64,000 nt of DNA. It comes from Leptolyngbya sp. FACHB-261 (GTDB lineage: Bacteria > Cyanobacteriota > Cyanobacteriia > FACHB-261). Within the stretch, counting starts at the first letter, position 1; every line of letters begins with the position of its first letter. The stretch spans positions 124,001 through 188,000 of the forward strand of contig NZ_JACJPL010000024.1 in the NCBI RefSeq assembly GCF_014696065.1, given 5' to 3'. A model generated the notes under the pieces. It was not told the origin of the DNA. It worked only from the letters and a program-made list of their open reading frames with translations, and searched no databases. The position numbers were made by a program, and so were the translations under genes. Below are positions 3,954 through 12,880 of this stretch, piece after piece.

Positions 3954-4165
3954 AAAAGCACTGGATCCAGCAACCAAAGGATTGGATCCAGTGACATCAC
4001 TGATTAATCTCATTAACAGAAGCATTGCATCGAGTGACAGAAGCATTGCATCGAGCAGCAAAAGAGTTGCTTCCAGTGACATTACTGATGGATCCCAATG
4101 ACAGAAGAGTTGGAGCCAGCAACAGAAGAATTGGACCCGATGACATAGCTTTTGGATCTAGCTTC
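3954..4165 (+). repeat. Degenerate 21-bp tandem repeat array, about 10 units
   Basis: Ten consecutive units of 21 bp (two or three of 22) can be laid out from 3954, each resembling AGAAGCATTGGATCCAGTGA plus a final C. Units at 4018-4038 and 4039-4059 are nearly identical; others keep the TTGgATCcAG core and the trailing GAC or AAC. Some 22-bp units beginning AT(C/T)ACTGAT recur at 3996 and 4081, suggesting a higher-order pattern. The array starts 30 bp after mtnA and ends shortly before structured RNA element A. A period of 21 bp equals two helical turns and also seven codons. I see no inverted symmetry inside units. Confidence 0.75.
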
Positions 4166-4202: not shown

Positions 4203-4231
4203 CAACACAACGCGCCAAATCCGATGTGTTG
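4203..4231 (+). other. Hairpin just 5' of structured RNA element A
   Basis: CAACACA at 4203-4209 and TGTGTTG at 4225-4231 form a perfect 7-bp stem with a 15-nt loop. No matching hairpin is evident at the same distance before element B, so it may not belong to the conserved fold. Confidence 0.5.
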
Positions 4232-4234
4232 CGT

Positions 4235-4508
4235 AAAAGCGACCCTTCTGATAGCGTGTTTTCAATCGTCAGAAGTGGAGCTTTTGCCTAACGAAAAATC
4301 ACTCAAGCAACATAAAAACTTAGCGCTACCTAGAAGCTCATAACCAACTTCTAGATAGCTAACCCCCCAACTGGTACTAGGCCAGTCAGGCGGCTAACGG
4401 GTGATTTTAACACCCCACTAGCCACCCCGACTTGCTACGGCAACTTACCGGGGTGGTTAACACTTTGGGCGGTCTTTGCGTAGGGATGAAATTTCAATTC
4501 GTCCCTAC
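4235..4508 (+). ncRNA. Candidate structured RNA element A, upstream of orf Y
   Basis: This stretch has no gene but can fold into a chain of stems that reappear in element B. They are: AAAAGC 4235-4240 with GCTTTT 4280-4285, enclosing CTTCTGA 4245-4251 with TCAGAAG 4269-4275; TTAGC 4320-4324 with GCTAA 4358-4362, enclosing CTAGAAG 4330-4336 with CTTCTAG 4348-4354; ACTGG 4370-4374 with CCAGT 4382-4386; GGGTG 4399-4403 with CACCC 4411-4415; AGCCACCCCG 4420-4429 with CGGGGTGGTT 4449-4458, enclosing TTGC and GCAA; GTAGGGATGAA 4480-4490 with TTCGTCCCTAC 4498-4508. No T-tract follows the last stem. The strand is inferred from the downstream gene. It may be a leader of orf Y or a free-standing RNA. 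It matches no family known to me. Confidence 0.72.
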
Positions 4509-4561
4509 CCGCAGCCGCATGCTTATCCAACTCCTACCCAGCAATCGAGAGAGAACTAACC

Positions 4562-4909
4562 ATGAACTTTGACCATTTATCGCCTTCGCAAATTCGGTTG
4601 ATGCTCTGGGACTACATCAGCCGTCAACTGCATCTGCCTGCCTCGACCAAAAGCATTCTGCTAGTGATCGCCAACCTCACTGACCCGCGTAGTCTACGCG
4701 CCCGCATCCCTATCTCGCTGATCGTCGTTCATGGTGGACTGAGCCAATCCGACACCAATCGGCTGCTAGTCAACCTGGAAGCAAACCAGTGGGTCAGCAA
4801 AATGTTGGTGCCTGACGAAGCGATCGGTCGCCCACCTATCACCCTCTACAACCTCTCCGAGCAACTGGTTCGAGCAGCGTTACAAGCCAGCAAGAGATCT
4901 AGCGATTGA
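4562..4909 (+). CDS. Uncharacterised 115-residue protein (orf Y), winged-helix-like
   Basis: The gene follows structured RNA element A by 53 bp, with GAGAGAACTAACC before ATG 4562. The product reads like a small helical DNA-binding fold: SPSQIRLMLWDYI, then LPASTKSILLVIANL, then a possible recognition helix SQSDTNRLLVNLEANQWV and a beta-wing-like PPITLYNL. It shows no membrane segment. A broken relative lies at 12591-12880, directly behind orf X and structured RNA element B, so the gene belongs to a recurring module. Its stop is 2 bp from the stop of the opposing Uma2 gene. The winged-helix idea is inference from the helix pattern; the function is unknown. Confidence 0.8.
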   Translation: MNFDHLSPSQIRLMLWDYISRQLHLPASTKSILLVIANLTDPRSLRARIPISLIVVHGGLSQSDTNRLLVNLEANQWVSKMLVPDEAIGRPPITLYNLSEQLVRAALQASKRSSD

Positions 4910-4911
4910 AA

Positions 4912-5676
4912 TCAAAGCTGATCTGGATCCACACCCAGCGCCCTCAATCGCTCTGCCAACTGCTGCGCTCGCTGTTGCTCATGGGCTAACTGTGCCTCAG
5001 CCTGTTCTGCTCTTTGCTGTTGCTGTTCCGCTCTGTGCTGCTCTAAAGACGCCCGTTCATCACCCGTAGGCAAAACCTCGCCCTGTCGGTCACACCAGCG
5101 CAACCACACCGCCTGCTTGCCTTCAAACTCGCCTTCCCACAACGTCAGCCCCAAACCGACTTTCTCCAACCAGGTTTGAGACATTGCCTCATAACTATTG
5201 CCCTGCAATTCGTAAATGTGCAGCAGCGTCTCACTCAGTTGTTGCAGCGGATCAAACACCACATAGTAGGCCACACCAATACGGGCATAGTCTCTCAACT
5301 TGCTTCCCAATTCGTTGCCTTCCCGATTGGAAACAATCTCAATCACGACATCCGGTGGTTTGCCAAACTCCCAGACAAAATAAGCTCGGTTCTGCTTGTC
5401 TCGCCAGTCTTGAGGAGCCTGCACACCCAAGCTGAGGAAGACATCTGGCACCAGAGGCGGCTGACGCACCGCATAGAACACGCCCACATTAGCAGCCGTT
5501 AGAAACGAGCGATCATTCAGGCCCAACCAAGAACTGTAGAGGCAAACCGTCAACAGGCGTTGCAGAGTTTCAGAGAAGAGGTTATCCACAGGCGCATCAT
5601 CTTCGGTAACCAGATGACTGACATCTGGCTCAACTGCCGATTCATCCAGGCTGATTGCAGACTGAGACATACTCAA
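4912..5676 (-). CDS. Uma2 family endonuclease-like protein (DUF820) with coiled-coil tail
   Basis: The central region carries the PD-(D/E)XK-like pattern of Uma2/DUF820 proteins, which are very abundant in cyanobacteria: PPLVPDVFLSLG, then KPPDVVIEIVSNREG, then LRDYARIGVAYYVVFDP. The C-terminal 50 residues are a Gln/Glu/Ala-rich coiled coil (EQHRAEQQQQRAEQAEAQLA). The acidic N-terminal 40 residues are probably disordered. A nuclease activity is proposed for the family from its fold, but the physiological role is not established. It is convergent with orf Y. Start ATG 5676 gives MSMSQSAISLDES; the ATG two codons later is also possible. Confidence 0.85.
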   Translation of the reverse strand: MSMSQSAISLDESAVEPDVSHLVTEDDAPVDNLFSETLQRLLTVCLYSSWLGLNDRSFLTAANVGVFYAVRQPPLVPDVFLSLGVQAPQDWRDKQNRAYFVWEFGKPPDVVIEIVSNREGNELGSKLRDYARIGVAYYVVFDPLQQLSETLLHIYELQGNSYEAMSQTWLEKVGLGLTLWEGEFEGKQAVWLRWCDRQGEVLPTGDERASLEQHRAEQQQQRAEQAEAQLAHEQQRAQQLAERLRALGVDPDQL

Positions 5677-11849: not shown

Positions 11850-11912
11850 ATGAAAATTTTCGCAAAAAGCTCGACTCACTTAAATACGCTTGTCAAAGCT
11901 GTGCTCCTTTGA
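11850..11912 (+). CDS. Possible 20-residue leader peptide before structured RNA element B
   Basis: GAGG (11837-11840) sits nine bases before ATG 11850, which opens a frame MKIFAKSSTHLNTLVKAVLL ending at TGA 11910. The stop lies inside the first stem of structured RNA element B, so translating ribosomes would disturb that stem. No equivalent frame is seen before element A, which weakens the case. It may be a true leader ORF or a chance frame. Confidence 0.35.
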   Translation: MKIFAKSSTHLNTLVKAVLL

Positions 11913-12158
11913 TAACGTACTCTCCATCCTGCGTAAAGGAGCAACCTGCTTAGCGACAAAATCCCTCAAAAATTTAGCGCTACCCAAAAGCTTTAGCCAA
12001 CTTTTGGATAGCTAACCCCCTAACTGCACAGAACGCAGTCCGGCGGCTGACAGGTGATTTTAACACCGACTAGCCACCCCGACTTGCTATTGGCAAATCA
12101 CCGGGGTGGCTAACACTTTGGCGGCATTCCGGTAAGGGCAGGATGGCCCTGCCCTTAC
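11895..12158 (+). ncRNA. Candidate structured RNA element B, upstream of orf X
   Basis: The stems match element A one for one with different bases: AAAGC 11895-11899 with GCTT 11948-11951, enclosing GCTCCTTT 11903-11910 with AAAGGAGC 11935-11942; TTAGC 11974-11978 with GCTAA 12011-12015, enclosing CCAAAAG 11984-11990 with CTTTTGG 12001-12007; ACTGC 12023-12027 with GCAGT 12035-12039; GGTG 12053-12056 with CACC 12064-12067 around loop ATTTTAA; AGCCACCCCG 12072-12081 with CGGGGTGGCT 12102-12111, enclosing TTGC and GCAA; GTAAGGGCAGG 12132-12142 with CCTGCCCTTAC 12148-12158. Between the two elements ACTGG/CCAGT becomes ACTGC/GCAGT, and the last stem changes at several pairs while staying paired. 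This argues for selection on RNA structure. Confidence 0.72.
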
Positions 12159-12204
12159 CCACAACCGCGTTCAATTTTTCGCGTTCAACTTTTGTGGAGT
12201 GGGC

Positions 12205-12576
12205 ATGTTGATGCGCCAACTTTTGCATGTGATTAATCCGCGTCAATTCGAGATTTCGCTCAGCTATCTCGCCACCTATTTAGGCATTCCAGCCAACTGT
12301 ATTTTGCGTTTTGAACAGTGGGCCAATGTCCTCTTCGTCCATCGCAAAGATCGGGGCGGGCAATTCGTGAGTTATCGCAACTTAATCCACTGGATCGAAG
12401 CCTGTGTTCGTGCCATTCAAACCTGTCCTAACCCCCAGGCCCTACAAGAACTCGGCCAATTTCTCAAAACCGAAATCGAGCGTTTCACCTACGCCGATGA
12501 CGTTATTAGGTACCTGCGGCGACTCTGGCTACAACGCAAAGCCCAACTCAATCTCACCCCTAATCTCTACTCCTAA
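12205..12576 (+). CDS. Uncharacterised small protein (orf X) behind structured RNA element B
   Basis: GGAG at 12196-12199 precedes ATG 12205 by 5 bases and ATG 12211 by 11; either could start. The product begins near MRQLLHVINPRQFEISLSYL and continues LATYLGIPANCILRFEQWAN, VLFVHRKDRGGQFVSYRNL, then helical segments (WIEACVRAIQTCPNPQALQELG) and a basic tail. No signal peptide or membrane helix is present. I do not recognise a named family; the mix of a short helix-turn-helix-like start and a strand pair could be a nucleic-acid-binding fold, but that is a guess. The degraded orf Y relative begins 14 bp after its stop, so X and Y once formed an operon behind element B. Confidence 0.78.
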   Translation: MLMRQLLHVINPRQFEISLSYLATYLGIPANCILRFEQWANVLFVHRKDRGGQFVSYRNLIHWIEACVRAIQTCPNPQALQELGQFLKTEIERFTYADDVIRYLRRLWLQRKAQLNLTPNLYS

Positions 12577-12590
12577 CCCCTAATTCCCGC

Positions 12591-12880
12591 CTGACTCCCT
12601 CTCAACTTCGCCTCAATGGGGCTACATCACCCACGAACTGCCCCTGACGCCACCGCTCAAGCTCATCCTGCTCGTGGTCGCCAATTTCTACTGCTCCTCG
12701 GAGCCGCACTGCCAAACTGCCTGTCTCCCTGATCGTTTACGGCTCCGGTTGTGCCACCAAGAACTCCAGTGTCTGCTCGTCAGCTTGAAATCTGCTCAGT
12801 GGCTCCACTCGATCTGGAGCACCGACCAAGTTGGGCAACGACCGATCTTGCTCCACAACCTGTCACCCCGCCTGATCTAA
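12591..12880 (+). pseudogene. Frameshifted relative of orf Y
   Basis: Conceptual translation in shifting frames aligns with the intact gene at 4562-4909. LTPSQLRL matches LSPSQIRL; after a shift, WGYITHELPLTPPLKLILLV matches WDYISRQLHLPASTKSILLV. After another shift, RTAKLPVSLIV matches LRARIPISLIV. After a third, LLVSLKSAQW matches LLVNLEANQW, and QRPILLHNLS matches RPPITLYNLS. At least three frame changes are needed, so the gene is dead as written, unless there are sequencing errors. It begins 14 bp after orf X and stops at TAA 12880. The decay contrasts with the preserved stems of element B upstream. Confidence 0.75.

Follow-up and report, generated by a model that had tools for sequence, protein, structure and literature searches.

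A probable riboswitch-like leader class ahead of small-protein genes in Leptolyngbya sp. FACHB-261 and other cyanobacteria

What is the structured RNA that occurs twice in one stretch of the Leptolyngbya sp. FACHB-261 genome, and does it serve the genes beside it? The stretch, called the window here, comprises 64,000 nt (NZ_JACJPL010000024.1, positions 124,001–188,000 of the forward strand). A preliminary description, made from the letters of the DNA, had aligned two of its parts, elements A and B, over a core estimated to be 75% identical, in which stems persisted while bases changed. It took this for selected RNA structure of no recognised family, either a leader regulating the adjacent ORF or a free RNA of a mobile or regulatory module. 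We examined the structure, promoter, gene linkage and alternative pairings of this RNA computationally, and we consider it likely to be a cis-acting, riboswitch-like 5′ leader class that is absent from Rfam.

Two copies of a structured RNA in the window

Alignment of A with B bore out the conserved core, with an identity (82.7% over 156 nt) somewhat above the first estimate, and the stem pairs quoted for it (CTAGAAG/CTTCTAG in A and CCAAAAG/CTTTTGG in B, for example) are present. Both elements fold far below their dinucleotide shuffles (Table 1). Searches used two covariance models, R1, built from close copies in the same genome, and R2, restricted to the core helices P1–P3. A and B were the only convincing R2 matches in the window. 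The outline of the element had to be redrawn: the promoter begins upstream of the segment first delimited, and the last conserved stem is P4. While the core stems assigned to the element held, the third stem (4480–4508) did not belong with them. R1 positions 165–193, which cover it, match alone elsewhere in the genome and on both strands, so that we regard it as a dispersed REP-like hairpin outside the core.

Table 1 Features of elements A and B in the window
Feature	Position	Strand	Description and basis
Promoter of A	4229–4257	+	−35 TTGCGT 4229–4234; 17-nt spacer; extended −10 TGA-TAGCGT 4252–4257; sequence read, boxes aligned in 23 close copies
Leader RNA A	4265–4519	+	putative start, placed from promoter; folding z −7.6; R1 match 4313–4519
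Conserved core of A	4316–4424	+	R2 match, 90.4 bits; pair counts
P1 of A	about 4325–4336/4348–4359	+	part of conserved core
P2 of A	about 4363–4373/4383–4393	+	part of conserved core
P3 of A	about 4399–4415	+	GGGTG-ATTTTAA-CACCC; part of conserved core
P4 hairpin of A	about 4418–4460	+	TAGCCACCCCG ... CGGGGTGGTTA; fold and alignment; last stem of conserved RNA
REP-like hairpin of A	4480–4508	+	GTAGGGATGAA/TTCGTCCCTAC; separate matches of R1 positions 165–193; outside core
Gene X after A	4562–4909	+	115 aa; predicted winged-helix fold (AF2 pLDDT 89.7); MarR-like folds
Promoter of B	11890–11918	+	−35 TTGTCA 11890–11895; 17-nt spacer; −10 TAACGT 11913–11918; sequence read and alignment
Leader RNA B	11926–12169	+	putative start; folding z −6.3; R1 match 11967–12169
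Conserved core of B (P1–P3)	11970–12077	+	R2 match, 81.1 bits
REP-like hairpin of B	12131–12159	+	sequence read; R1 match
Gene Y of B	12205–12576	+	about 121 aa; start 12205 or in-frame 12211; homologues found; intact
Decayed gene X remnant after B	12617–12877	+	tblastn 35% identity, E 3e-9; one internal stop

Gene Y is missing downstream of A, which is followed directly by X. Because Y has been lost and X of A sits behind the REP-like hairpin, A itself may be decaying. Around A, a 21-nt tandem repeat (ACAGAAGCATTGCATCGAGTG) occupies window positions 4016–4070, upstream of the promoter, and similar heptad-like repeats occur in ORF calls upstream of four other leader copies (L009, L017, L028 and L109). 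An ORF on the minus strand (window 4912–5676) resembles Uma2 (DUF820) by eye, and leader copies L013 and L014 have ORFs of this kind nearby.

Copies and covariation across genomes

A blastn search of the FACHB-261 genome with A returned 23 further dispersed copies (E ≤ 5e-4). When these close copies were aligned, the core was common to all and the flanks were unrelated; they shared a promoter of the form TTGCnn, 17 nt, TAnnnT, frequently with an extended −10 (TCTGn). R1 recovered the RNA upstream of the remaining X loci, which blastn had missed, and its other matches proved on reading to be further copies ahead of other genes. With R2, the 6.9-Mb genome contains about 75 copies, the two weakest of which are doubtful (L283 is truncated and has lost P2; L284 is probably a chance match). 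To our knowledge, this is the highest per-genome number for any such element. The promoter pattern TTGnnn-N16–19-TAnnnT was present in 57 of 63 own-genome leaders, compared with 12% of shuffles.

The RNA extends well beyond this genome. In the covariance-model search across cyanobacteria that the preliminary description had proposed, R2 matched 94 of 390 genomes, belonging to 49 of 160 genera (own genome included), at E ≤ 1e-3, a threshold at which a rough calibration predicts about 0.4 chance genomes. Many of the matched genomes hold at least 10 scored R2 candidates each. We read 79 loci from other genomes, after reorienting those with the R2 match on the minus strand (L166–L168, L171–L173 and others). 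Most other genomes add a long helix, P0, which closes the RNA and completes a five-way junction, P0–P4.

Base changes within the stems argue strongly for selection on RNA structure, as had been proposed from A and B. Among 39 diverse copies of the own genome, 21 of 26 pairs were changed on both sides, giving 173 two-sided cells versus 64.6 ± 6.6 after shuffling, and shifting the partner by a single base lowered the paired cells from 87% to 37–49%. P1 is the most variable and the best supported stem, column pair 13–43 being A-U, G-C, C-G or U-A across copies. At the 79 loci from other genomes, none of which was used in building R2, all 26 pairs were changed on both sides (460 cells versus 159.8 ± 9.8); the alignment was made to the model, and this biases the percentage paired upwards. 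Palindromic DNA repeats of the REP/MITE type might imitate RNA structure, and the third stem is indeed such a palindrome. However, covariation of P0, P1, P2 and P4 is seen between loci with little sequence in common, and the strand of the RNA is fixed relative to promoter and gene across loci. We therefore give this explanation almost no credence. The conserved block is not coding. Nor are the copies mere DNA repeats, since what divergent copies have in common is their structure and genes, not their sequence.

No known RNA family accounts for the element, in agreement with the initial impression. Rfam 15 gave no match anywhere in the window, none at E ≤ 0.5 at 10 own-genome loci, and no family at 12 other-genome loci, where two sub-threshold microRNA matches both lay outside the RNA. 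The models for the Downstream-peptide motif (RF01704) and the glnA motif (RF01739) matched neither the window nor the own- and other-genome loci, and no Rfam model for a group I or II intron, HEARO or other catalytic RNA matched. A literature search, with most subscription papers and preprints outside its reach, found no report of the leader RNA.

Genes downstream of the RNA

In FACHB-261, 72 of the 75 copies have a gene downstream on the same strand. The nearest such gene is Y at 47 copies, X at 9, Z1 at 9, Z2 at 5 and a W-like gene at 1; reading added one further Z2-like gene, downstream of copy L282. Copies L280 and L283 have no recognisable downstream gene. Conversely, the RNA lies upstream of all 47 Y genes, of 41 of the 45 X genes, which usually sit after Y, and of 9 of the 11 Z1 genes. 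The leader is copied about 75 times in the FACHB-261 lineage, where it also precedes Y, X, Z1 and Z2. Two Z2-type copies (L107 2913–4084 and L108 2160–2989, oriented) adjoin CRISPR-like repeat arrays, whose repeat reads VAKNLNPFEGLK in one frame.

Y copies have a median dN/dS of 0.18 (pairs with dS 0.1–1.0), and X copies are looser, at 0.56. The predicted structure of Y is fair (pLDDT 84.5), and its fold had no convincing match in the PDB; X is predicted to be a winged helix. Searches of Pfam, NCBIfam, PHROGs and PADLOC left Y, Z1, Z2 and W without a family and gave only weak helix-turn-helix matches for X. X was found in no other genome among the 390 searched and in no viral contig, Z1 in no other genome among 291, and Y in no plasmid or phage. 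Distant relatives of Y exist in a few genera, and those in Trichocoleus, Symploca and Microseira were found without the RNA, which makes recruitment of Y to the leader within the FACHB-261 lineage probable. By eye, four of these relatives (L063, L065, L067 and L068; Trichocoleus, Symploca) adjoin an XRE-type regulator and/or a conserved protein of 76–94 aa, and a reverse-transcriptase-like ORF follows the one at L065.

In other genomes, the RNA goes with another small protein, W. At 71 of the 79 loci, a W profile matched on the same strand within the 500 nt that follow the RNA, and it never matched upstream or antisense; some rows of the profile derive from these same loci, and the absence at three control positions is independent of that. 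By genome, 87 had both RNA and W, 7 the RNA only, 55 W only and 241 neither (Fisher p 7e-40, phylogeny ignored). Among 30 sampled W loci, the RNA was found at 10 and was not detectable at 20, and it was not found at plasmid-borne W genes of Nostocales. The plasmid W genes (L243–L249) belong to Nostoc, Trichormus, Anabaena, Scytonema, Calothrix and others, and several have ParG, integrase or helix-turn-helix genes nearby. The W profile had no relative in the PDB, and the P3 sequence pattern did not occur in viral contigs. The linkage to W, together with the RNA at all 47 Y genes, makes a leader of the downstream ORF the probable reading of the two offered at the outset. Copy number, cyanobacterial spread and the W family all go beyond what was seen in the window at that time.

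We think a leader more likely than the other reading, a free RNA belonging to a mobile module. RNA, Y and X might also make up a selfish RNA–protein cassette that spreads copies through the genome, as might be suggested by some 75 dispersed copies with unrelated flanks, a linked cargo, and the decay of some copies (A without Y, B with a broken X). Yet we recognised no transposase, reverse transcriptase or integrase inside the unit at the loci read, the cargo varies among copies, Y is under purifying selection, and W leaders are conserved in other genera too, each tied to a gene. We consider such a cassette improbable.

A leader RNA might also answer to its own gene product: the small protein (W, or Y and X here) would bind the leader and repress its own translation, as with ribosomal-protein leaders, in place of metabolite sensing. 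This special case of the leader reading would suit an RNA whose downstream genes come almost exclusively from a few small-protein families, with many paralogous RNA–gene pairs kept in many genomes. However, the same core precedes the unrelated Y, X, Z1, Z2 and W, so that recognition of every copy by one encoded protein is not to be expected, and a common outside signal would be simpler. Autogenous control is thus rather unlikely in our judgement.

Alternative pairings and comparison with known leaders

We assessed pairings that could form an expression platform by comparing each locus with permuted partners, using clusters below 80% identity; shared ancestry partly remains in these tests. In the W leaders of other genomes, P0 scored −16.8 kcal/mol when matched and −11.7 ± 0.7 when permuted (0/5000). 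P4 gave a z of −5.0, and P5, which joins the 3′ strand of P0 to the segment before the SD, a z of −4.2, while two control pairings alongside them were not significant. P0 and P5 share a strand and both exceed permutation; they are mutually exclusive pairings in the W leaders of other genomes only.

A second alternative, also in other genomes, pairs the loop/3′ strand of P3 with the SD region (matched −9.7 versus −7.85 ± 0.45, 0/5000), and the corresponding P1 and P2 controls were null. When the four SD bases alone were counted, the excess was modest (38 matched versus 32.8 ± 2.8 permuted), and the pairing is weak in about half of the clusters. Matched changes on the two sides are seen at L168 (TCACTCCACT with AGTGGAGTGA), L208 (CTCCGCT with AGCGGAG), L180 (GCACTCC with GGAGTGC) and L219 (TTTACTCC with GGAGTAAA). 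The same permutation test did not support P3:SD pairing in the own-genome copies, and this part of the mechanism should therefore not be extended to A and B.

The position of the core bears on one more explanation, a stand-alone gene for a trans-acting small RNA beside a separate ORF. The RNA has its own promoter, as such a gene would, and in subfamily I the core is separated from Y by a strong hairpin and 200–440 nt. In W leaders, by contrast, the RNA ends close to the SD and ATG, and in subfamily II the leader continues directly into them; the core ends 54–160 nt before SD/ATG in other genera and subfamily II. The core can moreover pair with the SD region in other genera, and we noticed no U-run terminator after it in the leaders read. 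There is little to recommend a stand-alone RNA on these grounds.

For the cis-acting leader, we propose that a sigma70-type promoter would start an mRNA whose first 190–250 nt fold into P1–P4, with P0 closing the junction in most other genomes, and that the gene for a small uncharacterised protein would follow closely. The 3′ strand of P0 could, in other genera, alternatively pair with the next segment, as P5, and the P3 loop/3′ strand with the ribosome-binding site; these P0/P5 and P3:SD alternatives suggest that the RNA can hold shapes that open or close translation. The trigger might be a protein, possibly the one encoded downstream, or else an ion or a small molecule. Transcription start, switching, direction of control and signal are what we infer for such a leader. 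The fuller claim, that this is a new riboswitch class in which a five-way-junction RNA of many cyanobacteria senses a signal and controls translation of a multi-copy small-protein family, is one that we hold tentatively, as a serious possibility.

Roughly one in four of the sampled cyanobacterial genomes has this leader, which Rfam lacks; this points to an overlooked regulatory system of the phylum. The P0/P5 and P3:SD alternatives yield predictions as to which mutants should switch, and having one leader in common offers a way into the function of the W proteins, whose family is absent from Pfam and NCBIfam.

How does this RNA compare with known systems? The Downstream-peptide and glnA motifs are glutamine riboswitches. 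Both are cyanobacterial leader RNAs, and the former precedes ORFs of about 17–100 aa without known family (PMC2864571). The new RNA resembles both in being a cyanobacterial 5′ leader, and the Downstream-peptide motif also in the short, family-less ORF downstream; unlike either, it has five helices and a P3 with a TTTAACAC-type loop, reaches about 75 copies per genome, and carries W, Y, X, Z1 and Z2, all unnamed families, as cargo. With REP/MITE-like palindromes it has in common the third hairpin of A and B, whereas its core is asymmetric and linked to promoter and gene. Like ribosomal-protein leaders, it is a structured leader whose partner in most genomes is one small-protein family, but in FACHB-261 several unrelated cargo families stand behind the same core. 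Known riboswitch regulons consist mostly of metabolic or transport genes, and the new leader differs from them in copy number and cargo. In build it nonetheless follows the translational riboswitches: the helix that closes its junction has a 3′ strand with a second possible partner, and another part of the RNA is complementary to the SD region.
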